Source: Roseococcus sp. SYP-B2431
GTDB taxonomy: Bacteria; Pseudomonadota; Alphaproteobacteria; Acetobacterales; Acetobacteraceae
Assembly: GCF_004336745.1 (NCBI RefSeq)
Contig: NZ_SJXD01000011.1
Coordinates: 62,001 to 126,000 of the forward strand
Direction: 5' to 3'
DNA: 64,000 nucleotides
Part shown: piece after piece, positions 35,540 through 64,000 of the stretch
Layout of the letters: each line of letters starts with the position of its first letter
Numbering within the stretch: the first letter of the stretch is position 1
The notes under the pieces: generated by a model
The model's database searches: none
Seen by the model: only the letters and a program-made list of their open reading frames with translations
Told to the model about the DNA's origin: nothing
Program-made: the position numbers and the translations under genes

Positions 35540-35740
35540 ACGGCCCCGGATGGTCCCGCGCAAGCGGGTCAAAAGGGAATGCCGTGAGTTCCTCGGAACA
35601 AGTCGGCAGCTGCCCCCGCAACTGTCAGCGGCGAGACGCTGGCCCTTCCGCCGTGCGCGATGCGCGGCGGGCCACTGCGGCGAAAGCCGCGGGAAGGCCG
35701 GGCCTGCATCGACGACCCGCGAGCCAGGAGACCTGCCATC
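35540..35740 (+). ncRNA. Cobalamin riboswitch
   Basis: The leader has the ordered conserved blocks of the AdoCbl-type cobalamin riboswitch: the paired GGTCCCGC/GCGGGTC arm with AAAAGGGAAT (35551-35580), GCAGCTGCCCCCGCAACTGT (35605-35624), GCCACTG (35671-35677) with GGGAAGGCCGGGCC later, and the B12-box GAGCCAGGAGACCTGCC (35721-35737). It ends about 50 nt before the start of the binding-protein gene. No terminator with a T-run lies between, so control is probably by hiding the ribosome site AAGGAG at 35779-35784. In the known class, cobalamin binding turns expression off. The downstream genes are an ABC transporter and a core MetE. Confidence 0.95.
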
Positions 35741-35789
35741 CGAACGACCCATCACGACCAGGCGGGGTGCCCTGGGCAAGGAGAATGAG

Positions 35790-36776
35790 ATGACCGATCA
35801 CGCCGCCTCACGGCCTGGCTTCGCTTTGTCGCGCCGCGCGCTGGCCGCAGGAGTTGCCGGCGCAGGCCTGGCAAAGCCGGCGCTGGCCCAGGCCCGCCCC
35901 CGCCTTCGCGTCGGCGTGCCGACCAAGGCCTATTGGCCGACCATCATCGCCACCGCGGCCGAGCAGCAGAAATTCTTCGAAAAGGAAGGTCTTGCCGTCG
36001 AGACCACCATCTACCGCGGCGGCGCGGAGTGCTTCGAGGCGCTGGCCGCCGGCGCGGCGGACCTGATCCTCGATCCGCCCTCGCTCGTCGCGGCCGGCAT
36101 CAGGCGCGGCTTCGGCTCCAAGCTCGTGACCTCCGGCGCGCTCGCCTATTTCGGCTGGCATCTGATGGTGCGGACGGATTCGCCCATCCGCGAGGTCTCG
36201 GAACTCGCGGGCAAGAAGCTCGGCATCACCTCGCGCGGCTCGGGCTCGGACCTGCTGGCGCAATGGACCGAGGTGGACCGCCGGGTCACGACCAACCGCG
36301 TGCCGGTGGGCGGCGGCGGGCTCGTGCCGAACCTGCGCTCGCGCAACATCGACGCCGCGGTGATCTACTCGCCGCTGAGCTTCCAGCTCCTGCGGGCCAA
36401 CCAGGCGCGCAGCCTCATCGATTTCGGCACGGCGATCCCGCAGCACACCACCGCCGGCTGGATCGCCAGCGACCGCATCATCCGCGACACGCCCCAGGCC
36501 GTGCAGGGCGGCGTGAACGCGATCTATGGCGGCCTGGGCTGGCTGCGCGCGAATCGCGGCCCGGCGGTCGAGCTCATCTCCACCAACAACGAGATCCCGC
36601 CCGAGATCGCGACGATCGAGTACCAGGAGACCATCCTCAAGCTCTCGGTCGACGGCGTGATCGAGCAGGCGCAGGTGGCCTATTCGCTCGAGCTCGCGCG
36701 CATGATCGGCATGACCGACCTGGCCCCGGTCGAGGAGGTCTTCACGACGCGCTTCCGCCCGGTTCCGACCCGCTGA
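35790..36776 (+). CDS. ABC transporter substrate-binding protein, SsuA/TauA/NMT1-like
   Basis: A 328-residue periplasmic protein of the NitT/TauT class. A twin-arginine-type signal (LSRRALAAGVAGAGLAKPALAQA) precedes RLRVGVPTKAYWPTIIATAAEQQKFFEKEGLAVE, the family's N-terminal lobe, with AGAADLILDPPSLVAAGIRRG and REVSELAGKKLGITSRGSGSD. The start has AAGGAG 6 nt upstream. It is the first gene under the cobalamin riboswitch and overlaps the permease by one base (TGATG). Family members bind sulfonates, thiamine precursors, nitrate or aromatic acids. The riboswitch suggests a ligand linked to methionine or cobalamin metabolism, not proven. Confidence 0.88.
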   Translation: MTDHAASRPGFALSRRALAAGVAGAGLAKPALAQARPRLRVGVPTKAYWPTIIATAAEQQKFFEKEGLAVETTIYRGGAECFEALAAGAADLILDPPSLVAAGIRRGFGSKLVTSGALAYFGWHLMVRTDSPIREVSELAGKKLGITSRGSGSDLLAQWTEVDRRVTTNRVPVGGGGLVPNLRSRNIDAAVIYSPLSFQLLRANQARSLIDFGTAIPQHTTAGWIASDRIIRDTPQAVQGGVNAIYGGLGWLRANRGPAVELISTNNEIPPEIATIEYQETILKLSVDGVIEQAQVAYSLELARMIGMTDLAPVEEVFTTRFRPVPTR

Positions 36777-37528
36777 TGTCACGCGCGTCCATGCTGGCGG
36801 CGCGGCTGCTGCTGCTGGCGCTGGCGCTCGGACTCTGGGAGGCGCTGCCGCGGCTCGGCTGGGTGGACGATGAGATCCTGCCGCCGTTCAGCGCCGTCTT
36901 CGTCACGGCGCTGCAGCTGCTGCAGCGCCCGGCGATCCATGGCGATCTCGTGACCACCGGGCTGCAGCTCGGCGCGGCGCTGATCATCTCCGTGCCGACG
37001 GGCGTCCTGCTTGGCATCCTGCTGGCGGAGAACAAGCGGCTCGCCCAGGTCTGCGAGCCGCTGCTCTACTTCCTCTTCAGCGTGCCGAAGTCGATCTTCC
37101 TGCCGCTCTTCATCCTCACCCTCGGCATCAGCTTCTGGCAGAAGGTCGCCTTCGGCTGCTTCTCGACCATTCTCATCGTGCTGATGAGCGCGACCGCCGC
37201 CGTGCGCTCGGTGCGCGAGGAGCATGTGCTGACGGCGCGCTCCTACGGCGCGACCCGCGCGCAGATCACGCGCCACGTCTACCTGCCGAGCATGCTGCCG
37301 GTGCTGCTCGAGGCGCTGCGGCTGGCCGTGATCTTCTCCACCACCGCCGTGGTCCTGGCGGAGATGTACGCCTCGCGCAGCGGCATCGGCCAGCAGATCG
37401 CGAGCTGGGGCGAAAGCTTCATGATGCGCCAGCTCTTCGCCGGCGTGTTGATCGTCTCGGTGACGGCGATCGTGATCAACGAGTTCATCCGATGGATCGA
37501 GAACCGATGCAGCCACTGGCGCAGCTAG
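36776..37528 (+). CDS. ABC transporter permease (SsuC/TauC-like)
   Basis: A 250-residue inner-membrane protein with about six membrane helices. The BPD-transport EAA-like loop is VREEHVLTARSYGATRAQITRHVYLP. Start and end helices (AARLLLLALALGLWEALPRL and FAGVLIVSVTAIVINEFIRWIE) are clear. It is coupled to the binding protein by a TGATG overlap. Directly after the stop codon begins the first copy of the two-hairpin repeat (37529-37632), before the ATPase gene. Confidence 0.9.
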   Translation: MSRASMLAARLLLLALALGLWEALPRLGWVDDEILPPFSAVFVTALQLLQRPAIHGDLVTTGLQLGAALIISVPTGVLLGILLAENKRLAQVCEPLLYFLFSVPKSIFLPLFILTLGISFWQKVAFGCFSTILIVLMSATAAVRSVREEHVLTARSYGATRAQITRHVYLPSMLPVLLEALRLAVIFSTTAVVLAEMYASRSGIGQQIASWGESFMMRQLFAGVLIVSVTAIVINEFIRWIENRCSHWRS

Positions 37529-37632
37529 AGCGTGATGACTTGAGGCCGCTCCGGCCGAAAAGTCTGAATCACGCTCTCGGCAAAATCTCAGAGCGCGGAT
37601 TGTGAGCGGATGCGAATGAAGCAAGCTCTGAG
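37529..37632 (+). repeat. Two-hairpin structured repeat, copy 1
   Basis: Hairpin 1: AGCGTGAT (37529-37536) pairs with ATCACGCT (37568-37575), GACTT (37537-37541) with AAGTC (37560-37564), leaving TGA bulged on the 3' side. The apex is GGCCG-CTC-CGGCC. After CGGCAAA (37578-37584), hairpin 2 pairs CTCAGAGC (37587-37594) with GCTCTGAG (37625-37632) around GTGAGCGGATGCGAA. A second copy at 61154-61258 keeps the single-stranded parts while its stem bases change in matching pairs. The element sits between two genes of the riboswitch operon. Confidence 0.75.
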
Positions 37633-37657
37633 CGAGCGGGCGGTGACGGAGCGGCCG

Positions 37658-38428
37658 ATGATCGAGGTCATCGGCCTCGGCCACACCTATGAATCGCGCG
37701 GCGTCGCCTCGCGCGCGCTGGAGGACATCGCGCTGACGGTGCAGGCCGGGCGCTTCACCGTGATCGTGGGGCCGAGCGGCTGCGGCAAGTCCTCGCTGCT
37801 CATGATGATGGCGGGGCTGCGCCGGCAGACCGAGGGCACCATCCTCGTGGACGGCAGGCCCATGCTGGATCCGGACCCGGACCGCGTGGGCGTCGTCTTC
37901 CAGGACGCGAACCTCTTCCCCTGGCTGAGCGCGATCGACAACGTGGCCTTCCCGCTCATGCTGCGCGGCCTGGGCAGGTCCGAGCGGCTTGACCGGGCCT
38001 CCGCGATGCTGGAGCTCGTGGGCCTCGGCCATGCCGGCGCGCGCTACCCCTCCGAGCTCTCGGGCGGCATGAAGCAGCGCGTCTCCATCGCGCGCGGCCT
38101 CGTGCAGGACCCGCCGGTGCTGCTGATGGACGAGCCCTTCGCCGCGCTGGACGAGCAGACCCGCATGACGATGGGCGAGGAACTGCTGCGCATCTGGTCC
38201 CAGACCTCCAAGACGGTGGTCTTCGTCACGCACAGCCTGAGCGAGGCCGTCTACCTGGCCGACGAGGTCCTGGTCATGTCGGCCCATCCCGGCCGCATCA
38301 TCGACCGCATCGAGGTGGAGCTGCCGCGGCCGCGCACCTACGAGATGATGGCCACCGCCACCTTCGGCCAGCTGCGCGACCGCATCTGGCGGCAGATCCG
38401 GAGCCCCCAGCCCGGAAATCCCGCGTGA
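37658..38428 (+). CDS. ABC transporter ATP-binding protein (SsuB/TauB-like)
   Basis: A 256-residue ATPase. Walker A GPSGCGKSSLL, Q-loop VVFQDANLFPW, signature LSGGMKQRVSIARGL, Walker B VLLMDEPFAALD and the H-loop VFVTHSLSEA are all intact, with the D-loop sequence typical of the nitrate/sulfonate/taurine group. The ATG at 37658 has GGAG 7 nt upstream; in-frame ATG codons at 37610 and 37616 fall in the repeat element and are unlikely starts. The stop overlaps the second permease start (GTGA). Confidence 0.92.
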   Translation: MIEVIGLGHTYESRGVASRALEDIALTVQAGRFTVIVGPSGCGKSSLLMMMAGLRRQTEGTILVDGRPMLDPDPDRVGVVFQDANLFPWLSAIDNVAFPLMLRGLGRSERLDRASAMLELVGLGHAGARYPSELSGGMKQRVSIARGLVQDPPVLLMDEPFAALDEQTRMTMGEELLRIWSQTSKTVVFVTHSLSEAVYLADEVLVMSAHPGRIIDRIEVELPRPRTYEMMATATFGQLRDRIWRQIRSPQPGNPA

Positions 38429-39195
38429 GCCCTTCCGCCATCCGCTGGCTGATCGGCGGAATCCTGCTGGTGCTGTGGGAGGTGCTGCCGCGCGCGGGGC
38501 TGGTGCCGCAGCTCTTCCTGCCGGCGCTCAGCCAGACCATCGCTGTCGCAATCGCCGACTGGCGCATCTTCGCCGAGGCCCTGGCGGTGACGCTCAGCGA
38601 GGCGGCGGTCGCGCTCGTCTTCGCCTGCGGGGGCGGCATCCTGGCCGGGGCGTTGCTGGGGAGCGTCGCGCGGCTGCGCGGGCTGCTGCTGCCGGTCGTC
38701 TCCAGCCTCTATGCGGTGCCGCTGGTGGTGCTCTATCCGGTCTTCACCGCCTGGTTCGGCATCGGCGCGCAGTCGAAGATCGCCTTCGCCTCCCTCTACG
38801 GCTTCTTCCCGACGCTCCTCGGCACGGCCGCCGGCATCCAGACGATCGACGCGCAGCTGCTGGTGACCGCGCGCAGCATGGGCGCGACCCTGTCCCAGCG
38901 CCTGCGGCACGTCGTGCTGCCCGCCGCCATCCCCACCGTCATCGCCAGCCTGCGACTCGGCGGCGCGCTGGTCATCGTGGGCGTGGTGGTCTCCGAGATG
39001 CTGACCTCCTCGGCCGGCATCGGCTATCTCATCACCTCCTACCGCACGGTGCTGGACAGCCCGCGCGTCTATGTCGGCATCCTGCTCGTGCTGCTGCTCG
39101 GCGTCCTGCTGGACCTCGGGATGCGCCTGCTGGAGCATGCCGCCACCCGTCATCGCCCCTCGGCCGTACCGCGCCGCGCGGCGCCCGCCATCTGA
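38425..39195 (+). CDS. ABC transporter permease, second subunit
   Basis: A 256-residue membrane protein with about six helices and the permease loop (ARSMGATLSQRLRHVVLPAAIP). It starts with GTG in a 4-nt overlap with the ATPase gene. It is only distantly similar to the first permease, so the transporter is probably a heterodimer, which is less common in the SsuABC/TauABC class, where one permease gene is usual. Followed after 21 nt by the core methionine synthase. Confidence 0.9.
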   Translation: MSPSAIRWLIGGILLVLWEVLPRAGLVPQLFLPALSQTIAVAIADWRIFAEALAVTLSEAAVALVFACGGGILAGALLGSVARLRGLLLPVVSSLYAVPLVVLYPVFTAWFGIGAQSKIAFASLYGFFPTLLGTAAGIQTIDAQLLVTARSMGATLSQRLRHVVLPAAIPTVIASLRLGGALVIVGVVVSEMLTSSAGIGYLITSYRTVLDSPRVYVGILLVLLLGVLLDLGMRLLEHAATRHRPSAVPRRAAPAI

Positions 39196-39216
39196 CCACC
39201 GATAGGACCGCATCCC

Positions 39217-40251
39217 ATGGCCGACACCCTTCCGCTCCTGCCCACGACCGTGGTGGGGAGCTATCCGCAGCCGGCCTGGCTGGTGGACCAGGAGGCGCTG
39301 CGCCAGCGGCTCGTGCCCCGCGTCCGCGCGCCCGAGATCTGGCGCGTGCCTGAGGAGCGGCTGCACGCCGCGCAGGACGACGCCACCCTGCTCGCCATGC
39401 GCGACATGGAGCGCGCCGGCATCGACATCATCACCGACGGCGAGATCCGGCGGGAGAGCTACTCCAACCACTTCGCGAATTCGCTTGAGGGCATCGACGC
39501 GGCCAATCCGGGCGAGGTCATCGGCCGCACCGGCAAGCCGACGCTCGTTCCCCGCGTCGTCGGCCGCGTGAAGCGCGCGCATGCCGTCGAGGTGGAGGAC
39601 ATCAGGTTCGCGCGCGCGAACACCGACCGGCAGCTCAAGATCACGCTGCCCGGCGCCTTCACCATGACGCGGCAGGCGAAGAACGAGTTCTACAAGGACG
39701 AGGCCGACCTCGCGATGGACTACGCGGCCGCGCTCAACGAGGAGATCCTGGAGCTCAAGGCCGCCGGCGTGGACGTGATCCAGCTCGACGAGCCCTGGAT
39801 GCAGGCCTTCCCCGAGGAGGCGCGCCGCTTCGCCGTTGCCGCCATCAACCGCGCGCTGAAGGACGTCCCCGGCACCACCATCGTGCACATGTGCTTCGGC
39901 TATGCGGCCATGGTGGACGGCAAGCCGAGCGGCTACTCCTTCCTGCCGGAGCTCTCGGAGACCATCGCGCAGCAGGTCTCCATCGAGGCGGCCCAGCCCA
40001 ATCTCGACCTGGGCGTGCTGCGGGAGCTGAACAAGACCGTGCTGGTCGGCGTGCTCGACCTCAGCTCGCCCGAGGTGGAGACGCCGGAGATCGTCGCCGA
40101 GCGGCTGCGGCGGGCGTTGAAGGTGCTGCCGGCCGAGCGCATCGTGGCCGCGCCGGATTGCGGGATGAAGTATCTCCCGCGTGAGCGCGCCTTCGGGAAG
40201 CTCAAGGCGATGGCCGAAGGGGCCGCGATCGTGCGACGGGAAATCCAGTAG
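39217..40251 (+). CDS. Core MetE: cobalamin-independent methionine synthase lacking the N-terminal domain
   Basis: A 344-residue single-domain enzyme corresponding to the C-terminal catalytic half of MetE. Zinc ligands are complete: His224 and Cys226 (VHMCFGY), Glu257 (SIEAAQP) and Cys315 (APDCGMKY). The homocysteine-binding LDEPW is at 190-194 and GSYP at 14-17. Full MetE (about 750 residues) needs its N-terminal half for polyglutamyl folate, so short forms are thought to use another methyl donor (Mes-type synthases) or to be alkyl transferases. Position under a B12 riboswitch with a transporter fits a B12-saving methionine route. It is followed by a hairpin (40262-40280). Which methyl donor is used is unknown. 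Confidence 0.85.
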   Translation: MADTLPLLPTTVVGSYPQPAWLVDQEALRQRLVPRVRAPEIWRVPEERLHAAQDDATLLAMRDMERAGIDIITDGEIRRESYSNHFANSLEGIDAANPGEVIGRTGKPTLVPRVVGRVKRAHAVEVEDIRFARANTDRQLKITLPGAFTMTRQAKNEFYKDEADLAMDYAAALNEEILELKAAGVDVIQLDEPWMQAFPEEARRFAVAAINRALKDVPGTTIVHMCFGYAAMVDGKPSGYSFLPELSETIAQQVSIEAAQPNLDLGVLRELNKTVLVGVLDLSSPEVETPEIVAERLRRALKVLPAERIVAAPDCGMKYLPRERAFGKLKAMAEGAAIVRREIQ

Positions 40252-40261
40252 AGGGACCGGG

Positions 40262-40280
40262 CGAGGGGCCTTGCCCCTCG
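40262..40280 (+). terminator. Terminator-like hairpin after core MetE
   Basis: CGAGGGGC (40262-40269) and GCCCCTCG (40273-40280) form a perfect 8-bp stem with a CTT loop, 10 nt after the stop codon. No T-run follows. It probably marks the end of the riboswitch operon or its partial attenuation. Confidence 0.5.
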
Positions 40281-40348: not shown

Positions 40349-40876
40349 ATGAGCTTGAGCACGACCGTCGGACCAAGCTTGCACCCCCATGCCGCGCGGC
40401 TGCTGATCCTTCACCACTCGCGCACCGGCGGCACGGCAGCCATGGCGGAGGCCGCCTGCGAGGCCGCCGCGTCCGAGTCGGAGACGCGGCTGCTGAAGGC
40501 GGAGGAGGCCGGCCCCGACGATCTGCTCGCGGCCCAGGGCTATATCTTCGCGGCGCCGGAAAACCTGGGCTCCCTCTCCGGCCCGATGAAGGACCTCTTC
40601 GACCGCTGCTACTACCCGCTGCTCGACTGCATCCAGGGGCGGGCCTTCGCGCTGATGGTCTGCGCCGGCACGGATGGGCAGGGCGCCATCCGCCAGATGC
40701 GCCGCATCGCCACGGGCTGGCGCCTGCGCGAGGTGGCCGAGCCCGTGCTCGTCCTCACCGGCGCGCAGACGCCGGGGGTCATCCTCGCGCCCAAGCGCCT
40801 CTCCGACGCGCAGCTCGCACCCTGCCGCGACCTCGGCGCCGCCATGGCGGCCGGCCTGGCGCTCGGCATCTTCTGA
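40349..40876 (+). CDS. Flavodoxin-like NAD(P)H-dependent oxidoreductase
   Basis: A 175-residue flavodoxin-fold protein. The FMN phosphate loop is HHSRTGGTAAMAEAA; the AAPENLGSLSGPMKDLFDR segment and the GRAFALMVCAGTDGQGAIRQM strand-loop follow the WrbA/NADPH-FMN-reductase plan. Length is near the family norm. The start at 40349 is preceded by AGGGG. It lies about 100 nt after core metE and its hairpin; if co-transcribed, a flavodoxin could serve as the reductant for a methyl-transfer system, but that is speculation. Confidence 0.7.
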   Translation: MSLSTTVGPSLHPHAARLLILHHSRTGGTAAMAEAACEAAASESETRLLKAEEAGPDDLLAAQGYIFAAPENLGSLSGPMKDLFDRCYYPLLDCIQGRAFALMVCAGTDGQGAIRQMRRIATGWRLREVAEPVLVLTGAQTPGVILAPKRLSDAQLAPCRDLGAAMAAGLALGIF

Positions 40877-42244: not shown

Positions 42245-43222
42245 CTATTCCTTCTCGATCCCCGCGATCCGAACCACCTCGCTCCACCGGCGCCGCTCGC
42301 TGGCCAGGATGCGCTCCATGTCCTCGACCGTGCCGCCGACGGGCTCCGAGCCCCAGGACAGCAGGCGCTCCGTCACCTCCGGCGTCTTCACGATGCGGTC
42401 GATCTCGGCGGCCAGCCGCTGTCGCACCGCCATGGGCGTGCCGGCCGGCGCGCCATAGCCCATCCAGGCCTCGGCCTCGTAGCCCGCGATGCCGACCTCC
42501 TGCAGGGTCGGCACGTCGGGCAGCAGGCGGAAGCGCTGGCGGCCGCCCACGGCCAGCGGCTTGAGCGTGCCGGCGCGGAAATCCTCCAGGAAGGCGGGTG
42601 CCTGCTCGATGACGAGCTGCACGCGGCCGGCCAGCAGGTCCGTCCGCGCGGGCGTGCCCCCGCGATACTGCACCATCTCCATCGGCACGCCGCCGGCCAG
42701 CGCGCGGAACAGCTCGACCGTCAGGCGGGAGGCCATGCCGGAGGTCGCGAAGTTGATGCTGTTCGGCTGGGCCCGCGCCCGCGCGATCAGCTCCTGCACC
42801 GAATTGATGCCGAGCGAGGTGGGCACCGCCATCACATAGGGCACGGAGGCGACCATGCAGACGCCGCAGAGGTCGCGCTCGGGGTCATAGGGGAGCGACT
42901 TGTAGACGTAGCCGTTCACGACCATCGGGCCCGGGCTGCCGCCGAGCAGCGTGTAGCCGTCCGCCGGCGCCTTCGCGACGGCGTCGGCGCCCAGCATGCC
43001 GAAGGCGCCGCCCCGATTCTCCACGACCACCTGTTGGCCGAGCGGCCCGCCCAGCCGCTCGGCGACGAGGCGCGTCATCAGGTCGGTCGTGCCGCCGGCG
43101 GCGAAGGGCACAATCACGCGGATCGGGCGGGCGGGCCAGGCCTGCGCGGCCGCCGGGCCGGCCAGGGCCGGGGCGGCGAGGGTGCCGAGGAGGGCGCGGC
43201 GCGGCAGCATCGGAAGGGTCAT
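42245..43222 (-). CDS. Bug-family tripartite tricarboxylate transporter receptor (TctC-like)
   Basis: A 325-residue periplasmic binding protein with a signal peptide (LPRRALLGTLAAPALAGPAAAQ) and family motifs WPARPIRVIVPFAAGG, ENRGGAFG, VQYRGGTPARTDLLAG and LPDVPTLQEVG. Two cysteines in LCGVCM are unusual for the family. It is the fourth orphan receptor in the window. Upstream on the same strand lies the remnant of a LysR gene, possibly its former regulator. Confidence 0.9.
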   Translation of the reverse strand: MTLPMLPRRALLGTLAAPALAGPAAAQAWPARPIRVIVPFAAGGTTDLMTRLVAERLGGPLGQQVVVENRGGAFGMLGADAVAKAPADGYTLLGGSPGPMVVNGYVYKSLPYDPERDLCGVCMVASVPYVMAVPTSLGINSVQELIARARAQPNSINFATSGMASRLTVELFRALAGGVPMEMVQYRGGTPARTDLLAGRVQLVIEQAPAFLEDFRAGTLKPLAVGGRQRFRLLPDVPTLQEVGIAGYEAEAWMGYGAPAGTPMAVRQRLAAEIDRIVKTPEVTERLLSWGSEPVGGTVEDMERILASERRRWSEVVRIAGIEKE

Positions 43223-43255
43223 GTCTCGTCTCTCACAGGATGGCTGACGCTAGCA

Positions 43256-43598
43256 GGGGAAGCTATTCGTTCAAGTCTTGTGCTGGCCGCTGCCGCGCGT
43301 TCGAGGATCATTGCCGCCAGCAGCCTCGCGCTGGGCGAGGGGCGGCGGCCCACCACATACAGCGCGACCTCGGAATCCTCGATCGCCGGCAGGCCGGCCT
43401 CGGGCAGATGGCGTGCAGCTCGTCCCCGAGATTGCCCTCCGAGAGCAGCGCCACCCCGAAGCCGGCCGCCACGGCCGCGCGCATGCCCCCGATGCTGGCG
43501 CTGGTGAAGGCGGCGCGCCAGGCGATGCCCGCACGGTCCATCCCCTCCAGCGCCTGGGACCGGAAGACGCTTCGCCAGGGATGGAGCACCAGCGGCAA
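43256..43598 (-). pseudogene. LysR-type regulator remnant (C-terminal part, frameshifted)
   Basis: One frame encodes a piece of the LysR effector domain: PLVLHPWRSVF, GIAWRAAFTSASIGGMRAAVAAGFGVALLSEGNLGDELHAI. The family sequence then continues in another frame (LPEAGLPAIEDSEVALYVVG, then RRPSPSARLLAAMILERA), so there is a one-base shift near 43408. Nothing before residue PLVL is present: an in-frame stop lies about 24 nt upstream and the DNA-binding domain is missing. The gene is therefore both truncated and frameshifted, most likely inactive. A sequencing error would explain the shift but not the missing half. Confidence 0.75.
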
Positions 43599-43649
43599 GG
43601 GCCTATGAGGCGGCGGTCATGCTCTGCCGCCGCCTCGGTCTCGACGGCG

Positions 43650-45008
43650 CTACTTCGCCATAGCCTCCGTCCCCGCCGGCACGAAGAAGCGGTTTTCGGG
43701 CCGCGCGAGGCCGAGATTCTCGCGCAGCGTGCGGCCCTCGTATTCGGTGCGGAAGAGCCCGCGCTTCTGCAGGATCGGGATCACGAGCTGCGTGAAGCGC
43801 TCCATGCCGGTCGGCACCACGGGGGCGGCGATCATGAAGCCGTCGCAGGCCTTGCCGCGGTACCAGGCCTCCAGCTTGTCGGCGACCTGGACCGGATCGC
43901 CCCGGAAGATGTTGCCGGCCATCTGCGGCAGGACCGTCTTGTAGGTCTCGCGCACCGTCAGCCCCTTGGCGCGGGCCATCGCCACGATCGAGTGGCCGAT
44001 GGCCGTGGGCCCGATATGCTCGCCTGACAGCTCCGGCATGGGCCCGTCGAGCGGGTAGTCGGCCATGCGCACGCCGACCATCTTCGACAGGTAGTCGAGG
44101 CCGACGGGGACCGGGACCAGCTCCTCCAGCTCCTGCAGGATGCGCTCGGCCTCCGCCTCGGTCTCGCCGACGACGATGGTGGTCCCGGCCAGGATCTTCA
44201 TCTCGTCGGGCCGGCGGCCGTATTTCGCCATCCGGCCCTTCAGGTCGGCGTAGAGCTTCTGCGCGTTCTCGATCGTGCCCTCGATGGCGAAGACGCAATC
44301 GGCGGTCGAGGCCGAGAGCTCCTTGCCCGCATCCGACTGCCCGGCCGAGAAGATCAGGGGATGCCCTTGCGGCGGCCGGGGCGCGTTGAGCGGGCCGGCG
44401 ACCCGGAAGTGCTTGCCCTTGTGGTTGAGCGCATGGACCTTCTTCGGATCGAGGTATTTTCCCGAGGCCTTGTCCTGCGGGAAGGCGTCGTCCGCCCAGG
44501 AATCCCACAGCCCCTTCACGATCTCCGCGAACTCGCCCGCGCGCTCGTAGCGGTCGGCGCGCGCCACGTGCTCGTCATGCGAGAAATTCAGCGCGTCGCC
44601 CGGATTAGAGGTGGTGACGAGGTTCCAGCCCGCGCGGCCCTTGCTGAGATGGTCCAGCGAGGCGAAGCGGCGGGCCACGCCAAAGGGCTCGTCATAAGTC
44701 GTGGTGGCGGTGGCCACGAGGCCGATATGCCGCGTCACCATGGAAAGGGCGGAGAGCAGCGTCACCGGCTCGAAGATGCCGGGGCGATCGGAGGGGGCGG
44801 TGGCGGCGAAGAGGTCCGGCTTGTCCAGGTTCCGCACGCCGTTGCCGTCGGCCAGGAAAAGCAGGTCCATCTTGCCCGCCTCGGCGATCTGCGCGAGGCG
44901 GACGGCGTTCTCCAGATTGGCGGCGGGCTTGTCCCAGGCAGTCGGGTGTCGCCATTCGCCGACATGGCTTCCCTGGGCATTGGCATTGGCGGCGAGGATC
45001 ATGGGCAT
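43650..45008 (-). CDS. LLM-class flavin-dependent monooxygenase, NtaA/SnaA/DszA-type
   Basis: A 452-residue luciferase-like enzyme that uses FMNH2 from a separate reductase. NtaA/DszA features are the early HVGEWRHPTAWDKP, GKMDLLFLADG, FEPVTLLSALSMVTRHIGLVATATTTYDEPFGVARRFASLDHLSKGRAGWN, VTTSNPGDALNFSHDEH, the HKGKHFRVAGPLNAPRPPQGHPLIFSAGQS core, and GMERFTQLVIPILQKRGLFRTEYEG near the end. Substrates in this group include nitrilotriacetate, EDTA and organosulfur compounds. Start at 45008 avoids the upstream low-complexity extension. No flavin reductase lies next to it. Confidence 0.9.
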   Translation of the reverse strand: MPMILAANANAQGSHVGEWRHPTAWDKPAANLENAVRLAQIAEAGKMDLLFLADGNGVRNLDKPDLFAATAPSDRPGIFEPVTLLSALSMVTRHIGLVATATTTYDEPFGVARRFASLDHLSKGRAGWNLVTTSNPGDALNFSHDEHVARADRYERAGEFAEIVKGLWDSWADDAFPQDKASGKYLDPKKVHALNHKGKHFRVAGPLNAPRPPQGHPLIFSAGQSDAGKELSASTADCVFAIEGTIENAQKLYADLKGRMAKYGRRPDEMKILAGTTIVVGETEAEAERILQELEELVPVPVGLDYLSKMVGVRMADYPLDGPMPELSGEHIGPTAIGHSIVAMARAKGLTVRETYKTVLPQMAGNIFRGDPVQVADKLEAWYRGKACDGFMIAAPVVPTGMERFTQLVIPILQKRGLFRTEYEGRTLRENLGLARPENRFFVPAGTEAMAK

Positions 45009-53625: not shown

Positions 53626-55107
53626 TCAAAGGATTCCGAAGCGTTGCCAGACCGGGATCCGCTCGTCCCAGCGCTCCGCGATGATCGCGGCCGCGCGCTC
53701 CTGGCCCTCGGGGCTCAGCCCCGGCTGGAGGCGGCGGGCCAGCGCCATCGGATCCTCCGGATCGGCGCCCTCCAGCAGCGCCGCGGCCAAGGCCAGGTCG
53801 AGCGCGGTGGCCGGCAGCCCGCCGGCCGCGACCGGCGAGGCGAGCGCGAAGTGGCCGGTGCCCTCGCCGGTCGGCGCGTGGAGGGCGGCGGCGGCCAGGT
53901 TGAAGCGGGTCGCGGCCGGCGCCCGCTCCGGCGGGCGGTAGACGGGCAGCACCAGCTCGGTCCCGGTCAGCAGCGCCAGCACTTCGCCCGGATGGAGGGC
54001 CTCCGCGACGCGGGCGCGCAGGGCGCCGAGCGGTTGCGGGCCCTCGGCGAGCCCGGCGGCGATCGCGTCCCAGGCCGGCTGCGGCAGGGCCGCCTTGCCG
54101 GTGCCGGTGGCGAGGACGGGGCTCTCCTCCGGGATGGGCGCGCAGGCGGCGATCACCACCGCATCCAACGCCTCCAGCGGGTCGGTGCGGCGTCCGCCGC
54201 GGATGAATACATCGGCGCGGAAGCTGCGCGGCAGGCAGAGGTCCTTCAGGAACTCGCGCGGCGGGCCCTCGGGCAGCGTGGCCATCGCCTCGAGCTGCGG
54301 CGCATCGCAGACCAGTCCGGGCACGGCCTCGAAGAGGTTGCTGCTGCCGACGAAGTCCAGCTTGGCGGGCCCCAGCGCGGCGCAGAGATCCTCGAAGAAG
54401 ACCGGGCGCCAATGCGTGGTCAGGAACTCATGCGCGACGAAGGCGGGCTCCATCACCGGCGGATCGGCCAGCAGGCGCTTGAGCATCGGCGTCTCGCGCA
54501 GCGGCAGGTGCCCCGCCATGCCGCGCAGGCGCTCCAGGGCCATGGCGGCGGCCGCCTCGGCTTGGCCGGGATGGGCGCCCACGGGGCCGGCGAGGTGGCG
54601 CAGCAGGCGCTGCAGGGCGAGGTCGGCGCCGGCGGCCGGCAGGGCATTGTAGCCGAGATAGGCCAGGCCGCCCGGCTTCAGGCGCCGCGCCAGCAGCCGC
54701 ACGATCCCCTCGCGCACCTCGTCCGACACCCAGGACCAGACGCCGTGGACCATGACGACGTCGAGCGGCGGGATGCGGTCCAGCCCGGCCTCGTCCAGGG
54801 CCGCGAGGTCGGCTTCCAGGAAGAGCGCGTTGCCGAGGCCGGCGCGGCCGGCCGTCTGCGTCGCCTCGGCGATATGGACCGGGTTGTGGTCGAGCCCGAC
54901 CACCGTCCAGTCGGGATTGGCGGCGGCCAGCGTATTGGCTGCATAGCCGCGCCCGCAGCCGATGTCGGCCACGGTCATGCGCGGGCGGGGCTGCCAGTCG
55001 ACGCCGGCGGCGGCGCAGACCATGGCCATGTGCGCGGGGGTCTGCGCGGCCTGGAAGGCGACGCCGTAGGTGCTGCCGGCGACGTAGCCGTGGGACCAGT
55101 CTGCCAT
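53626..55107 (-). CDS. Class I SAM-dependent methyltransferase with methyltransferase regulatory domain, second of a tandem pair
   Basis: A 493-residue methyltransferase. The SAM-binding motif ADIGCGRGYAANTLAAANP is at about 47-65 of a Rossmann domain (about 1-200), with LDHNP and PPLDVVMVHGVWSW following. The middle region (about 215-300, with HEFLTTHWRPVFFEDLC) matches the methyltransferase regulatory domain, and the C-terminal third is an alpha/beta region of unknown function. The start ATG is 2 nt after the stop of its paralogue. The target is unknown; protein or carbohydrate substrates have been suggested for related genes. Confidence 0.88.
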   Translation of the reverse strand: MADWSHGYVAGSTYGVAFQAAQTPAHMAMVCAAAGVDWQPRPRMTVADIGCGRGYAANTLAAANPDWTVVGLDHNPVHIAEATQTAGRAGLGNALFLEADLAALDEAGLDRIPPLDVVMVHGVWSWVSDEVREGIVRLLARRLKPGGLAYLGYNALPAAGADLALQRLLRHLAGPVGAHPGQAEAAAAMALERLRGMAGHLPLRETPMLKRLLADPPVMEPAFVAHEFLTTHWRPVFFEDLCAALGPAKLDFVGSSNLFEAVPGLVCDAPQLEAMATLPEGPPREFLKDLCLPRSFRADVFIRGGRRTDPLEALDAVVIAACAPIPEESPVLATGTGKAALPQPAWDAIAAGLAEGPQPLGALRARVAEALHPGEVLALLTGTELVLPVYRPPERAPAATRFNLAAAALHAPTGEGTGHFALASPVAAGGLPATALDLALAAALLEGADPEDPMALARRLQPGLSPEGQERAAAIIAERWDERIPVWQRFGIL

Positions 55108-55109
55108 CG

Positions 55110-56597
55110 TCAGATGATCCCGAAGCGCCGCCAGATGGCCGGGCGCTCACTGAGCAGCTCCTCGACCATGCCCTTGGCGGCCTCCAGGGCCTCGCCGGAG
55201 ATGTCGGGCAGGATGCGCGTGGCGATGGTCTCCGCATCGGGCCATTCGGGGCCGGAATCCCCGATCTGGCAGGCGACGGCAAGCTCCATCCAGGTGCAGG
55301 CCAGCCCGGCCGCCGTGACGGGCGAGGCCATGGCATATTGCCCGCCGCGCCGCCCCTCGCGCCAATAGGTCTCGGCGACGGCGCGGTTGAAGCGCTGCGT
55401 GGCCTCGCTCGGCCCCACGTCGCGCAGCACGGGGAGAACGAAGCCGGCCCCGGCGAGCACGGTCAGCAGCTCGGCGGCGTTGGGGTTGCGGTCCGGGGTG
55501 AGGCTCCGCAGGCGCCCGAGGCTCTGCGGCGCCTCGCGCAGCGCGGCGGCGATCGGCTCCCAGAGATCCGGGCCGAGCTCCGCCGAGCCCACCGGCACGC
55601 CGATGCTGGGGCTCTTCTCGGGCAGGGTCTTGCAGGCGCCCAGCACCAGGCGGTCCAGCGCGACGGCGGGGTCGGTGCGGCGCAGCCCCCGCACGAAGAC
55701 GTCGCGCCGGAAGGGGCGCTGCAGCACGAGATCCTTCATGAACTCCCGCGCCGGGCCCATGGGGAGGGTCTCGTAGATCGCGCGCTGTTCGGGCGAGAAG
55801 ATCAGGTCGGGCACATTCTCGTGGAAGCCGGCGCTGCCCACGTAATCGAGCTTGGCAGGGGCGAGGTCGGCGCAGAGATCCTCGAAGAAGACCGGGCGCC
55901 AATGGGCGGTCAGGAACTCGTGGGCGAGGTAGGAGGCGTCCAGCTCTGTCTCGTCCTCCGCGATGCGCTTCAGCATGCCCGTGGGCAGCAGGTTGGCGGG
56001 CTTGGAGGCGTGCAGGGCGCGGATCGTCGGAATGACGGCCCGCGCCTTCTCCGGCGAGGAGCCCAGGGGCTGGAGGGCGGTCAGGTGCCGGAACAGCCGT
56101 TGCAGGGCCATGTCGCCGCCGAAGCCGGGCAGGGCGTTGTAGCCGACGTAGCAGAGGCCACCCGGCTTCAGCCGCCGCGCCAGCAGCCGCACGATGCCGG
56201 CGCGCACAGGGTCGGACACCCAGGTCCAGACGCCGTGCAGGCTGACCACGTCCAGCTCGGGGATCTGGTCGATCTCGGCATCGGTCATCTCGGCGAGGTC
56301 GGCCTCGACGAAGGTCGCGTTGTCGATTCGCGCCTTCTCTGCCAGCGCAGCGGCCTCGGCGATATGGGCCGGGTTGTAGTCGAGGCCGAGCACCGTCCAG
56401 CCGGGATTGGCGGCGGCCAGCGTGTTGACCGTGTAGCCGCGGCCGCAGCCGATGTCGGCGACGTTCATGCGCGCGGTGGGCTGCCAGTCGACGCCCATCA
56501 TGGCGCAGATCAGTGCCAGGTTCCCCGGCGCCTGCGCGGCCTGATAGGCGAAGGTATAGGGGCTGTCGGCGACATAGCCATGGGCCCAGGAGGTCAT
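55110..56597 (-). CDS. Class I SAM-dependent methyltransferase with methyltransferase regulatory domain, first of a tandem pair
   Basis: A 495-residue paralogue of the following gene, colinear over its full length: MTSWAHGYVADSPYTFAYQAAQAPGN, ADIGCGRGYTVNTLAAANPGW, LDYNPAHIAEAA, VSLHGVWTWVSDPVR, HEFLTAHWRPVFFEDLC and a C-terminal region ending EERPAIWRRFGII-like. The two sequences are clearly diverged but share conserved blocks, so the duplication is not recent. AAGGAAACC precedes the ATG. It follows tssG by 105 nt on the same strand, so it appears attached to the T6SS locus. Confidence 0.88.
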   Translation of the reverse strand: MTSWAHGYVADSPYTFAYQAAQAPGNLALICAMMGVDWQPTARMNVADIGCGRGYTVNTLAAANPGWTVLGLDYNPAHIAEAAALAEKARIDNATFVEADLAEMTDAEIDQIPELDVVSLHGVWTWVSDPVRAGIVRLLARRLKPGGLCYVGYNALPGFGGDMALQRLFRHLTALQPLGSSPEKARAVIPTIRALHASKPANLLPTGMLKRIAEDETELDASYLAHEFLTAHWRPVFFEDLCADLAPAKLDYVGSAGFHENVPDLIFSPEQRAIYETLPMGPAREFMKDLVLQRPFRRDVFVRGLRRTDPAVALDRLVLGACKTLPEKSPSIGVPVGSAELGPDLWEPIAAALREAPQSLGRLRSLTPDRNPNAAELLTVLAGAGFVLPVLRDVGPSEATQRFNRAVAETYWREGRRGGQYAMASPVTAAGLACTWMELAVACQIGDSGPEWPDAETIATRILPDISGEALEAAKGMVEELLSERPAIWRRFGII

Positions 56598-56702
56598 GCC
56601 GGTTTCCTTAAGCGATCGATGCCGCGCCGCGCGCGGAGGGAGACGACGAAGTCAAGCCCGCGGAGCGGGCGCCCGGCGCCTGAGGGCAGACAATGACGGG
56701 CG

Positions 56703-57851
56703 TCATATTCCACTCGGCCGGAGGTAGGCGTCCCGGGCGGGCGCACGGCGGGGCTTGGAGGCGCCCATCCAGGAGGTGAGGCCCAGGCGCCCGCCGTCGC
56801 TGCCTGTGCCGGCGCGGGTGGCGGGCACGGCATCGGCGGCGAGGATGGGATTCAGCACGAAATCCTGCTCCGGCCCGACGAAGAGCCGCGTCAGCCCGCA
56901 GATCTGCTCGAAGAGCGGCTGGCCCGGCAGCAGCCGCGCGAAGGACTCCGCGTCCAGCGGCCCGAGCCGGATGATGAAGCGGGCCTGCGGATCCCAGACC
57001 TGCGCGCCGACAGCCGCGTCCACGCCGAGGCGGCCGTGCACGACGCCGACGCGTGACTGCTCGGTGACCGGCAGGCGCAGCCATCCGCCGGCGAACTCCA
57101 CGATCTCGACCTCGGCGCCGGCCTCCTCGGCGAGCATGGCGCGCAGGCGCTCGGCGCTGCGGGTGCGCGCGGCGAGATGGCCGGCATGGTAGCGCAGGCT
57201 TTCCGCCGGCACCGCGAGCCGGCCGGAGAGGCCCGGCGTGCCCATACCGATCGCCGCGTCCAGCGCGCGCCGGGCCGGGCCGGAATCGCGGGCGGGCCGG
57301 TACTTGGCGCCGGCGCGGACCCACATGCCGGTGAAGCGGCGGGCCAGCATGTCGAGGAAGGCGTGCAGGGCGCGGCTGCGGTTGCGGAGCTCGGCGCCCG
57401 TCGTGGAGGTGTAGTGCCGCGGCAGCGTGCCGCCCGGTCCGATGAGCCCGAAGAGCGGTGAGGTGAGGGCGCCGGTCTTCGGATCGGCCGCCGTCACTTC
57501 GGCGAGCGGCAGGCCGAGCCGCGCGACGCTGGCGAAGGGCAGGTCCACCGCATCGCGCTCCCGGGCGATGACGAAGGCGGCCTGGTCGAGGTCGAAGCGC
57601 TCGGGATGGGCGGCGAGGGTGGCCATGGGGCTCGGCGCCGGCGCGCCGGGGGCCACGGGCAGCGCCTCGGCGGGCTGCTCCAGGATCGCGGCCTCGGCCG
57701 GGGCGATGGTGACGACCGGCTGCTCCGGCGGTGCCACAGGGGGCGAAGCGGCAGGGGGTGGAGGGGCAGCGGCCGGCGCGGTCGCGGCGGGCGACCGCCG
57801 CACGATCATCGTGGCTTCCGGATCGTCCTCGCTTTCTGCCTGGGAGCTCAC
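56703..57851 (-). CDS. tssG: TssG, T6SS baseplate subunit (ImpH/VasB)
   Basis: A 382-residue baseplate wedge protein with the TssG plan: an N-terminal proline-rich region of about 75 residues (an unusual extension), then ERFDLDQAAFVIARE, PFASVARLGLPLAEV, PLFGLIGPGGTLPRHYT, FLDMLARRF and the conserved GHLAARTRSAERLRAML. It starts with GTG in a GTGA overlap with the tssF stop; an ATG at 57806 is an alternative. It forms the TssEFGK baseplate with tssF and tssE. Confidence 0.88.
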   Translation of the reverse strand: MSSQAESEDDPEATMIVRRSPAATAPAAAPPPPAASPPVAPPEQPVVTIAPAEAAILEQPAEALPVAPGAPAPSPMATLAAHPERFDLDQAAFVIARERDAVDLPFASVARLGLPLAEVTAADPKTGALTSPLFGLIGPGGTLPRHYTSTTGAELRNRSRALHAFLDMLARRFTGMWVRAGAKYRPARDSGPARRALDAAIGMGTPGLSGRLAVPAESLRYHAGHLAARTRSAERLRAMLAEEAGAEVEIVEFAGGWLRLPVTEQSRVGVVHGRLGVDAAVGAQVWDPQARFIIRLGPLDAESFARLLPGQPLFEQICGLTRLFVGPEQDFVLNPILAADAVPATRAGTGSDGGRLGLTSWMGASKPRRAPARDAYLRPSGI

Positions 57852-59677
57852 AGCAGCACGCGCGTCCCGCTGCGCGGGGCCCAATTCGCCACGGGCGTCC
57901 CACGGCCGCGCAGATAGGCGCGCGTGCGGACAAAGCCGTTCACCGAGACCTGCAAGGCCAGGAAGCGCTCCAGCACCGCGCCCAGCAGATAGAGCCCCCC
58001 CGAGTTCCACGCCTGTGCCTCGAAGGTCAGCGAGACCTCGAGGCCGCGCACGAAGACGCCGGGGCGCTGGCCGGGGATGCGGGCCACGCCCGGACCCGAA
58101 TTCACCGCCACCAGCGCCGCGATCGCCGTGCGCGTCTCCGGCGTGTCGCGCAGGTCGTGCAGGCGCAGCATCTCGCGCAGCGCGACTGCGGCGCTCTCGC
58201 CGCCCATCACGCCGAGATGGTTGAGCGCGAGATGCGAGACCAGCCGCCAGGCGCCGCGCTCGCCGAGCCGCGGCCGCAGCGTCGAGGTCGGCGCCGAGAG
58301 GCATTCCGCGGCCGCGGCGGGACAGCTCGGCTCGGCGATGCGCAGCCGCGGCTGGCCGCCGCCGAAGGGCAGCAGCTCCGGCAGGTCGCGGTTGCAGCAG
58401 GTGGCGTTGACGGTGAGCACGCCGTCGGCCGGCGCGTCGGGATCGAAGTTGAGGTCGCGCAGCATGAGCCGCGTCTCCGTGCCGGTCAGCGAGGCGGGCG
58501 CGGGACCGCGCATCGCGATCCACTGCATCGGCGCGGCGTCCTCCTCGGCGGAGCCGTCGCGCGCCAGCCGCTGGAAGGGCAGCACCATGCGGCGGGCGCC
58601 ATCGGGCCGGCTCTCGCGCACCTCGTCGATGCTGTGGATCTCCAGCGCCGCGGGGCGCCGCGCGTCGGGGATCACCAGCCAGTCGGACTGCGTGCCGTCC
58701 ATCGGGATGGGCTCGCAGCGCTGCGGGAACAGGTTCACCGCAGGCGTGCAGTGCAGCGCCAGCGTGTCGTTGCCGATGGTGCGCTCCAGCTCGGGCGCGG
58801 CGCGGTTGAGGTAGACGAAGATCTCCAGCTTGTTGCCGTGCTGGAGCATGGTCCGCGCCTCCAGCCCGTCGATCTCCAGGTAGAGGAACTTCTCGGGGTG
58901 GGCGAAGTACTCGGTGAGCAGCCGGTGGCCGTCGAAGGCGCGGCGGGGCCAGGGCAGGGCGGCCTGCTCGCGCTCGAAGCCGAAGGGGCGGATCTTCTCC
59001 GGGCCGATGAGGGTGGGGGAGGGATCGCCCGGCCCGTCGGCCAGCGCGATGCCGACGCAGGCGGTGGCCAGCAGCTCGTGCAGGCCGGCGGCCACCTGCG
59101 GCGCGCCGCGCAGGTGCAGCCGCAGCGTGTCCAGCCCCGTCTCGGCGAAGTTGAGGTCGGGCACCTGGGTGCGCAGCGTGATGCGCAGGCAGGCGGAGGC
59201 GCCCGGCGCGCGCGGATTGGCCGGCGCCGCGAGCGGCAGGCCCATGAGCCGCACGGCCTCGATCACGACGGGCCAGAGCGTGACCTCGTGGCAGGTGACG
59301 TAGCGCAGCGGCTCGCCGCGCACCGCCTCGGTTTCCAGCGGCGTGCCGCGGACGGCGACGGCGGGTCCGCGCGCCTCGGCCTTGGGCTGCAGGCGCACCG
59401 TGGTCATGCTCGGCACCGGCGCGAGCAGATGCGGCGAGAGCAGCTCCAGCAGGGCATCGGTGATCTCGGGCAGCTCATCCTCGAGGCGCTGCTGCACGCG
59501 GCCGCCGAGGAAGGCCACGCCCTCCAGCAGGCGGTCCACATGTGGGTCGTCCACCGTGCCGTCGGAGGTGACGCGCAGGCGCCCTGCCACCTTGGGATAG
59601 GCCTCGGCGAACTCACCCGCGAGGCGGCGCAGCGCTGCCAGCTCGCGGTTGTAGAAGGGGAGGAGGCTTTCGCTCAT
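57848..59677 (-). CDS. tssF: TssF, T6SS baseplate subunit (ImpG/VasA)
   Basis: A 609-residue protein matching TssF over its length: LLPFYNRELAALRRLAGEFAEAYPKVAGRL at the start, DPHVDRLLEGVAFLGGRVQQRLEDELPEITDALLELLSPHLLAP, PAVNLFPQRCEPIPMDGTQ in the middle, and GARRMVLPFQ and LNHLGVMGG near the C-terminus. TssF is the large wedge component of the baseplate. It is preceded by a 109-bp gap after tssE, with no clear promoter, and overlaps tssG by 4 nt. Confidence 0.92.
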   Translation of the reverse strand: MSESLLPFYNRELAALRRLAGEFAEAYPKVAGRLRVTSDGTVDDPHVDRLLEGVAFLGGRVQQRLEDELPEITDALLELLSPHLLAPVPSMTTVRLQPKAEARGPAVAVRGTPLETEAVRGEPLRYVTCHEVTLWPVVIEAVRLMGLPLAAPANPRAPGASACLRITLRTQVPDLNFAETGLDTLRLHLRGAPQVAAGLHELLATACVGIALADGPGDPSPTLIGPEKIRPFGFEREQAALPWPRRAFDGHRLLTEYFAHPEKFLYLEIDGLEARTMLQHGNKLEIFVYLNRAAPELERTIGNDTLALHCTPAVNLFPQRCEPIPMDGTQSDWLVIPDARRPAALEIHSIDEVRESRPDGARRMVLPFQRLARDGSAEEDAAPMQWIAMRGPAPASLTGTETRLMLRDLNFDPDAPADGVLTVNATCCNRDLPELLPFGGGQPRLRIAEPSCPAAAAECLSAPTSTLRPRLGERGAWRLVSHLALNHLGVMGGESAAVALREMLRLHDLRDTPETRTAIAALVAVNSGPGVARIPGQRPGVFVRGLEVSLTFEAQAWNSGGLYLLGAVLERFLALQVSVNGFVRTRAYLRGRGTPVANWAPRSGTRVLL

Positions 59678-59786
59678 TTCGCCGTCCCGCCCCGGAGCGA
59701 AGCGGAGGGATCGGCGGGCCGGCCAGCAAAGCCGATGGCGCGCAGTGGTGTGAGCATGGAATGAAGGAGGTACGGCATGCGTGCCA

Positions 59787-60299
59787 TCAGCCGCGCTCGG
59801 TCACGATGACTTCGTGGGAGACAGCCTCGATCACCGTCTCGAAGCTGATCGGCTCCGGGATGGGATCGGTGCGCAGCACGGCGTCCACCTTGAGGCGCAG
59901 CGTGCGGTCCAGCTCGTTGCCCGACTCGCGCAGCTGCACGCGCACCGAGAGCAGCCGCGGCTCGAAGCGGCGGATGATGCGCTCCACCTCCAGCGCCAGC
60001 CCCTCGCGCCGCTCGGGCAGCGCATAGGCGCCCGAGGTCGCGTCCGGGATGCCGTAGCCGAGCGGCGAGAGGGCCAGCTCCGGCCCGTTCGCCGGCAGCG
60101 GCCAGCGCCGGCGTCGCGCGTTGAGCAAAGCCTCCAGGTCGCGGCGAACGGCGGCGCGCAGCGTGTCCAGCGCCTCCGCGGGCGTGGGCAGCTTCTCCTC
60201 CTTCGTGCCGGGATCGGGATCCAGCAGACGGTCGAGCAAGGGCAGCCGGACGCGCTGCGTCGGCCGCGTGCCGGAACTGCGCTCGCTTGATCCGCTCAC
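59787..60299 (-). CDS. tssE: TssE, T6SS gp25-like baseplate subunit (ImpF)
   Basis: A 170-residue protein of the gp25/lysozyme-like family: the TQRVRLPLLDRLLD entry helix, VRRDLEALLNARRRRWPLP with the conserved LN-R-R core, LSPLGYGIPD, then IRRFEPRLLSVRVQL and a final beta strand. The start appears to be GTG at 60299, because no in-frame ATG precedes the conserved region. It lies 33 nt after tagJ. It caps the baseplate hub end of the sheath. Confidence 0.9.
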   Translation of the reverse strand: MSGSSERSSGTRPTQRVRLPLLDRLLDPDPGTKEEKLPTPAEALDTLRAAVRRDLEALLNARRRRWPLPANGPELALSPLGYGIPDATSGAYALPERREGLALEVERIIRRFEPRLLSVRVQLRESGNELDRTLRLKVDAVLRTDPIPEPISFETVIEAVSHEVIVTERG

Positions 60300-60332
60300 A
60301 GGGGGCCGCTCATCCCGCTCATGTCATTCCCT

Positions 60333-61133: not shown

Positions 61134-61153
61134 GAATCCGTTTTCCTTCCTAA

Positions 61154-61258
61154 AGCGGGATGACCGCAGGCGCGAAGGCGCCGGAGGTCTGAATCCCGCG
61201 GCAAAGCGAATGCCTTGGACCATCGTGAGTGAGCGAATGCGAACTCATCATGGTCTAA
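61154..61258 (+). repeat. Two-hairpin structured repeat, copy 2
   Basis: Hairpin 1: AGCGGGA (61154-61160, with T61161) pairs with ATCCCGC (61193-61199), GACC (61162-61165) with GGTC (61186-61189), again leaving TGA (61190-61192) bulged; the apex is GGCGC-GAAG-GCGCC. After CGGCAAA (61199-61205), hairpin 2 pairs TTGGACCAT (61215-61223) with ATGGTCTAA (61250-61258) around GTGAGTGAGCGAATGCGAACTC. Relative to copy 1, stem positions change together (T-A to G-C in arm 1, TT/AA to CC/GG-like), while CGGCAAA, the TGA bulge and the GCGRATGCGAA loop stay. It lies between impD and tagJ and overlaps the impD stop codon. Confidence 0.75.
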
Positions 61259-62781: not shown

Positions 62782-62803
62782 GTCTCGCCCCCTTCCCCGC
62801 GGA

Positions 62804-64000
<1,197 letters not shown>

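Follow-up and report, generated by a model that had tools for sequence, protein, structure and literature searches.

Background

Core methionine synthases consist of the MetE catalytic domain alone, with its zinc and homocysteine residues, and the source of their methyl group was presented as an open question by Price et al. 2021 (PMC7857596). Structure 3RPD is a MesD protein according to this source, and approximately 55 % identity or more to a characterised MesD was its threshold for the assignment. Homocysteine methyltransferases fed by betaine or S-methylmethionine are mentioned in PMC7857596, PMC12366255 and PMC12478193. Isozymes of B12-dependent enzymes form a named class of cobalamin-riboswitch targets (PMC3766115). 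We analysed a stretch of 64,000 nt from Roseococcus sp. SYP-B2431, a member of the Acetobacteraceae (the window; contig NZ_SJXD01000011.1, positions 62,001 to 126,000, forward strand), in which a cobalamin riboswitch precedes an operon for an ATP-binding cassette (ABC) importer and a core MetE protein (Table 1). We propose, with a probability of roughly 0.4, that this operon is a B12-repressed backup for the methionine synthase MetH, in which a homocysteine methyltransferase draws on a methyl donor brought in by the importer.

Results

Cobalamin riboswitch and leader layout

The cobalamin riboswitch (RF00174) was the single Rfam match over threshold in the window. The match extended over the full model length, and cobalamin binding is predicted from its score. 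The operon starts 35 nt past the riboswitch on the same strand. The ATG of the binding-protein gene (35790) is located 52 nt past the B12 box and is preceded by a two-codon ATG AGA TGA beginning at 35785. In the hairpin region, GCGGGG at 35762-35767 is fully complementary to the aptamer sequence CCCCGC (35614-35619), its first base (35762) doubling as the last base of the P13 stem. The names L5, L13 and P13 follow published structures of cobalamin riboswitches. By analogy with known cobalamin riboswitches, the leader is predicted to be a kissing-loop switch in which bound B12 shuts off translation. Seven metE leaders from related genomes, including a near-identical pair, show a joint change of L5/L13 to CCCAGC/GCTGGG; most other leaders retain CCCCGC/GCGGGG, and those of G183 and G186 fit imperfectly. 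The regulatory half of the mechanism, a prediction from the leader, has good support in the sequence. A first reading of the DNA without database searches (the sequence-only reading) had named a clear cobalamin riboswitch before the operon, and this stands with 106 bits and a layout that could block translation.

Origin of the leader

A tree was calculated for 46 aligned riboswitches: that of the window, two more of its own genome and 43 of related genomes. A full metE gene follows 21 of these riboswitches. The window copy grouped with 15 of these 21 metE leaders, one further copy of its own genome and one other riboswitch (G059_y), with a split support of 96. Outside this split were the remaining six metE leaders and 22 others; where genes were called, these 22 head cob or TonB-receptor genes and, in a few cases, genes of other kinds. 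A full MetE was present in 22 of 66 genomes of the taxonomic family, and 21 of these carry a cobalamin riboswitch within ~350 nt upstream of the start, as judged by a comparison of coordinates by hand; the exception is G230. In M-type metE leaders (seven of 15 were translated), the first ATG follows 51-55 nt past the B12 box, and the succession of hairpin, ribosome binding site and ATG is common to them and the window leader. Because the window copy groups with the metE leaders and shares their layout, the core-MetE operon is now headed by a leader of the metE type, which suggests that a metE riboswitch leader was reused for a different operon.

The first ATG of the seven M-type leaders (L207, L208, L219, L243, L244, L245 and L246) opens a reading frame of 18-34 codons before metE, the stop of which overlaps the metE start in five of the seven; coupled leader peptides are possible. 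For the seven CCCAGC leaders, it is apparently the ATG of metE that comes next. The second metE-type riboswitch of the genome (C23:438492-438723; L097 7492-7723) is followed by genes whose translations read as a methyltransferase-like protein, a TonB receptor and BtuFCD-like proteins. A similar gene pair in G044 (L099 12275-14099) had no riboswitch listed before it. In Neoroseomonas terrae (L111 4187-9041) a riboswitch-metE-metF unit is divergent from a pair of a Bug and a core MetE gene, with ~1.2 kb from the riboswitch to core MetE, an arrangement that illustrates how the leader of a metE gene might come to lie at a core metE.

The core MetE protein

Core MetE has the zinc ligands H224, C226, E257 and C315 and the homocysteine residues S15, E76 and D191. 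It thus presents the MetE catalytic domain alone with its active site kept, and is a candidate for methionine synthesis from homocysteine. With 344 aa and no N-terminal folate domain (PF08267), it is not a full MetE. The alignment of 145 core MetE rows included 12 copies from the same genomes; all 133 distinct relatives keep the seven catalytic positions together with the motif DGE-x-RRESYSN-x-F. Eighty named rows were found by patterns including DGE and PDCGMKY; the 61 rows from the taxonomic family were not chosen by pattern, and the seven positions are kept in all 61. The AlphaFold model (mean pLDDT 88.9) had 3RPD as best structural match, with a TM score of 0.88. The intact zinc site named by the sequence-only reading is confirmed.

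Among 249 genomes of the taxonomic family, 195 had some match to core MetE. Sixty-eight near-full-length matches with at least 59 % identity were present in 64 genomes (hand count; two fragments left out), and 60 of the 67 loci outside the window were fetched for the study of neighbourhoods. A second group of matches, at ~40 % identity, includes MesX-linked MesD; full MetE proteins followed at ~30 %. A tree of 83 rows separated the family of the window protein (support 86) from five MesD-type rows (support 99), with a program warning that long branches meet. The nearest relative in this tree, a protein of G168, is encoded with another kind of ABC importer and a LysR-type gene upstream. Identities to MesD proteins were 36-40 %, with 36 % to 3RPD in the fold match and 38 % to a MesX-linked Agrobacterium protein, and the score on NF006589 was 257.3 bits against a cut-off of 392. 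MesX (DUF1852) had no match in any of the 66 genomes, including that of the window; both MesD-type control genomes were positive. An assignment as MesD was rejected, given the identity threshold of ~55 % (PMC7857596) and the lack of a MesX match. Two core MetE proteins with 37-39 % identity (L101 and L102; G238:C90 and G094:C564) grouped with MesD in the tree, though their genomes had no MesX match. By sequence comparison, core MetE belongs to an uncharacterised family next to MesD and distinct from it. A phylogeny against the known Mes families had been called for: tree, identity and MesX set the protein apart from MesD, the one Mes family that the comparison covered.

Linkage to the importer

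In three of the 60 other loci of the taxonomic family, core MetE likewise follows the four importer genes known from the window. The order binding protein-permease-ATPase-permease-core MetE was obtained in five of 80 named loci, and one further named locus has ATPase-permease-core MetE at a contig end. The count in named loci is a lower bound, because 16 of the 80 have less than 3.5 kb upstream. These six belong to Reyranella, Bradyrhizobium, a member of the Hyphomicrobiaceae, an alphaproteobacterium, a proteobacterium of no stated class and a betaproteobacterium; they show 48-80 % identity to the window proteins, and none is a copy of a locus of the taxonomic family. In total, nine further loci share the order (three within the taxonomic family and six outside it, one of the six being cut), so that the importer link is real. 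Hence the coupling of importer and core MetE described by the sequence-only reading holds across other genera and orders, and gene order supports the transport half of the mechanism.

The binding protein is rare, with one genome among 385 of the class at E 1e-75 (its own) and eight among 397 of the taxonomic family at E 1e-60, four of these (own included) at 68 % identity or more. Its model (mean pLDDT 76) matched structures of SsuA, Thi5, TauA and PqqT; many importer types were retrieved by the fold search, and no one ligand was singled out. On SsuA_fam (TIGR01728) it scored 76 bits against a cut-off of 163.5, below the aliphatic-sulfonate subfamily. In Bradyrhizobium hereditatis (L176 4029-4756) permease 1 is split between two frames. 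Locus L263 (3658-9333; G710) reads as a run of isochorismatase-, importer-, deacetylase- and fumarylacetoacetate hydrolase (FAH)-like genes; its importer is related to that of the window, and core MetE is missing from this 14-kb stretch.

Methionine synthases in the genome

The genome of 4.7 Mb (31 contigs, 99 % complete) encodes one PF01717 protein, the core MetE of the window, and one MetH activation domain in a frame of 1171 residues. No match to PF08267 was obtained in this genome, hence a full MetE was not found. With MetH present and core MetE downstream of the riboswitch, core MetE is a candidate B12-controlled isozyme beside MetH, and may itself be B12-independent. A full MetE or a MetH that is present and sufficient had been named as an argument against a B12-saving methionine route; MetH is present, a full MetE was not found in the genome. 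The combination of the two gives sense to a B12-repressed backup.

Operon genes and neighbourhood

The genes of the operon (start codons chosen by us) all lie on the plus strand. The gene content named by the sequence-only reading was confirmed, with a binding protein, two permeases, an ATPase and a single-domain MetE with intact zinc site.

Table 1. Features of the riboswitch-importer-core MetE locus, in positions of the window
Feature	Position	Strand	Evidence and remarks
Cobalamin riboswitch aptamer, RF00174	35534-35754	+	Covers model positions 1-189 with 106 bits (gathering score 31.5) and E 1.6e-25
Loop L5, CCCCGC; forms the kissing loop with L13	35614-35619	+	Complementary to 35762-35767
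P13 hairpin CCAGG-CGGGGTGC-CCTGG, expression platform	35758-35775	+	Read from sequence
Ribosome binding site AAGGAG	35778-35783	+	Two bases past P13; read from sequence
Substrate-binding protein, NMT1/SsuA/Thi5 type, 328 aa	35790-36776	+	Pfam NMT1
ABC permease 1 (BPD_transp_1), 250 aa	36776-37528	+	Pfam
ABC ATPase, 272 aa	37610-38428	+	Pfam
ABC permease 2 (BPD_transp_1), 256 aa	38425-39195	+	Pfam
Core MetE, 344 aa	39217-40251	+	PF01717 only, 140.7 bits
FMN_red-like gene	40349-40876	+	NADPH-dependent FMN reductase family PF03358, 32 bits; 97 bases past core MetE

The downstream gene, taken by the sequence-only reading for a flavodoxin-like gene that may take part, is FMN-reductase-like. It had no relative among the 60 orthologue loci (best tblastn E 0.35), for which reason it was rejected as a part of the operon, to which it probably does not belong. 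A strong hairpin (37527-37577) opens the 81 nt that separate permease 1 from the ATPase. It had a z-score of -3.9 as DNA, a stability reached by none of 200 shuffles, and lacks a T-run; a role in processing or stabilising the transcript is possible. Further downstream on the reverse strand (42245-45008) are a Bug-type binding protein, by reading, and a luciferase-like monooxygenase. The starts of reverse-strand genes at 53626-63991 suggest putative type VI secretion components.

Discussion

A proposed B12-repressed backup for MetH

Plentiful cobalamin would bind the leader RNA, the L5-L13 kissing loop would form and the P13 hairpin would block the adjacent ribosome binding site; with scarce B12 the operon would be translated. 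The importer would then bring in a methylated compound, and core MetE, as a zinc enzyme devoid of the folate domain, would move a methyl group from this compound or its product to homocysteine, yielding methionine. Core MetE may be a homocysteine methyltransferase that needs neither B12 nor folate and uses another donor, as argued from the intact homocysteine and zinc site, the missing folate domain, the lack of MesX and a leader expected to open without B12. Repression by B12 in the cell is inferred from the leader, homocysteine would be the acceptor, and the recurring importer would be the natural supplier of the donor.

Several observations weigh against this backup function. The riboswitch link was seen in the window's own genome only, among the loci searched. 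No other core MetE match among the 67 near-full-length ones in 64 genomes had a riboswitch nearer than ~15 kb on its contig, in a search with stricter filters in which some contigs end close by and the upstream sequence is shorter than 3.5 kb at eight of the 60 fetched loci. The riboswitch was absent from all six other importer-core MetE loci with a visible leader (L036, L039, L043, L176, L182 and L183); L133, L174 and L167 break off at the leader or ahead of it. A scan for the B12 box with up to two substitutions gave scattered matches over 84 loci, and an Rfam scan of ten of these loci revealed a riboswitch at L111 alone, on the opposite strand; the remaining B12-box matches were not all checked. 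In relatives, the expected riboswitch-transporter-core MetE order was thus recovered in its importer-core MetE part, and the riboswitch occurred with none of the other orthologues searched. Most of the 60 loci in the taxonomic family have other neighbours and the importer type is not constant, with Liv, dipeptide, ModABC-like, MalK-type and TRAP importers adjoining other relatives. The enrichment of importers over control loci was modest: in a comparison of 135 neighbour and 121 control proteins (20 loci each, related loci counted together), ABC permeases amounted to 12/135 against 3/121 (one-sided p 0.025) and ABC ATPases to 12/135 against 4/121 (p 0.055). Binding proteins of the tripartite-tricarboxylate type (TctC) were rejected as partners, with 9/135 against 9/121. 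MetH is encoded in 63 of the 66 genomes, thus the core MetE family is rarely the sole methionine synthase. The own genome carries, by reading, genes for B12 synthesis and uptake, hence scarcity would need another cause, e.g., a lack of cobalt. Some relatives are located near genes for an intradiol dioxygenase, FAH, a polysaccharide-deacetylase-like protein or dehydrogenases.

Alternative explanations

These last neighbours belong to the best surviving alternative, a catabolic demethylase or alkyl transferase family for imported aromatic or heterocyclic compounds, with methionine at most a by-product and the B12 link of the window a recent regulatory accident. L174 and L176 have ABC, deacetylase, FAH and core MetE genes in a single run, a Pantoea relative of the binding protein (40 % identity) lies beside ring-hydroxylating-oxygenase and VanB-type genes, and MetH is also present in most carriers. 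However, the homocysteine and zinc residues are invariant in the 133 distinct relatives, and the window operon contains none of these catabolic genes. In a count within 5 kb, copies removed, a dioxygenase was near 18 of 128 loci against one of 20 controls (one-sided p 0.23), and a deacetylase or FAH near 13 of 128 against none of 20 (p 0.14). An earlier count within 8 kb (33/140 against 1/20, p 0.04) was unfair, as the controls reach only ~6 kb from their centre and the 80 named loci include 12 copies of loci in the taxonomic family. In view of the p value of 0.23 in the fair count, ring-cleavage genes as steady partners were dropped as evidence and kept as a hint that imported ring compounds are involved. 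We consider the catabolic function unlikely, slightly more so after the fair count.

Considerably less probable is a B12-independent methionine synthase with an internal donor from an unknown partner, as MesD with MesX, the importer delivering a sulfonate or another sulfur or homocysteine precursor. The closest solved relative is a MesD, and the binding-protein fold resembles SsuA and TauA with 76 bits on SsuA_fam; against this stand the missing MesX in genomes searched with positive controls, the unreached SsuA_fam cut-off and an operon without a monooxygenase. It is also improbable, to a higher degree, that the riboswitch arrived by rearrangement and has no regulatory role. Such an event would agree with its presence at core MetE in this genome only and with the second copy of the same type heading another operon, but the aptamer, the kissing loop and the spacing to the ribosome site are all intact. 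Import of a B12- or cobalt-related precursor, with core MetE as passenger, is the least credible: cobalamin riboswitches control many transporters for B12, its precursors and cobalt (PMC3766115) and the other two riboswitches of the genome head cob and B12-uptake genes by reading, but this importer also accompanies core MetE at loci that lack a riboswitch, and the leader is of the metE type.

A wider extension of the backup function is doubtful: the family may be a further folate-free methionine synthase family of aerobic bacteria beside MesA-MesD, independent of MesX and taking its methyl group from importer-delivered compounds, with a captured metE leader making it here a B12-repressed replacement of MetE. 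If an imported methyl compound can serve to make methionine under the control of B12, the B12 requirement and methionine prototrophy of such bacteria would have to be predicted differently. The importer ligand, obtainable by binding assays, would name the methyl donor or precursor.

Comparison with known systems

An ordinary riboswitch heads an unusual operon. Stand-ins for B12-dependent enzymes are a known class of riboswitch targets; an importer with an uncharacterised core MetE in this role was not found described, and a literature search retrieved no paper on the riboswitch-importer-core MetE arrangement. The locus shares with the riboswitch-controlled full metE of the taxonomic family the riboswitch family, the leader type, the layout and the logic beside MetH, but the controlled genes are an ABC importer and core MetE. 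The binding protein, permeases and ATPase are of the families found in NMT1/Ssu/Tau/Thi-type ABC importers; in contrast to these, there are two permease genes and a core MetE in the operon, and the binding protein falls below the aliphatic-sulfonate subfamily cut-off. As in MesD/MesX (PMC7857596), a single-domain MetE fold carries the same zinc and homocysteine residues, whereas the identity of 36-40 %, the lack of a MesX match in 66 genomes, the link to an importer and the motif DGE-x-RRESYSN-x-F in place of DGEQTRQHF differ. The proposed supply of methyl groups by a methylated nutrient would work like that of the betaine and S-methylmethionine homocysteine methyltransferases, but core MetE belongs to a different enzyme family, PF01717, the homocysteine domain named in PMC12478193 being pfam02574.

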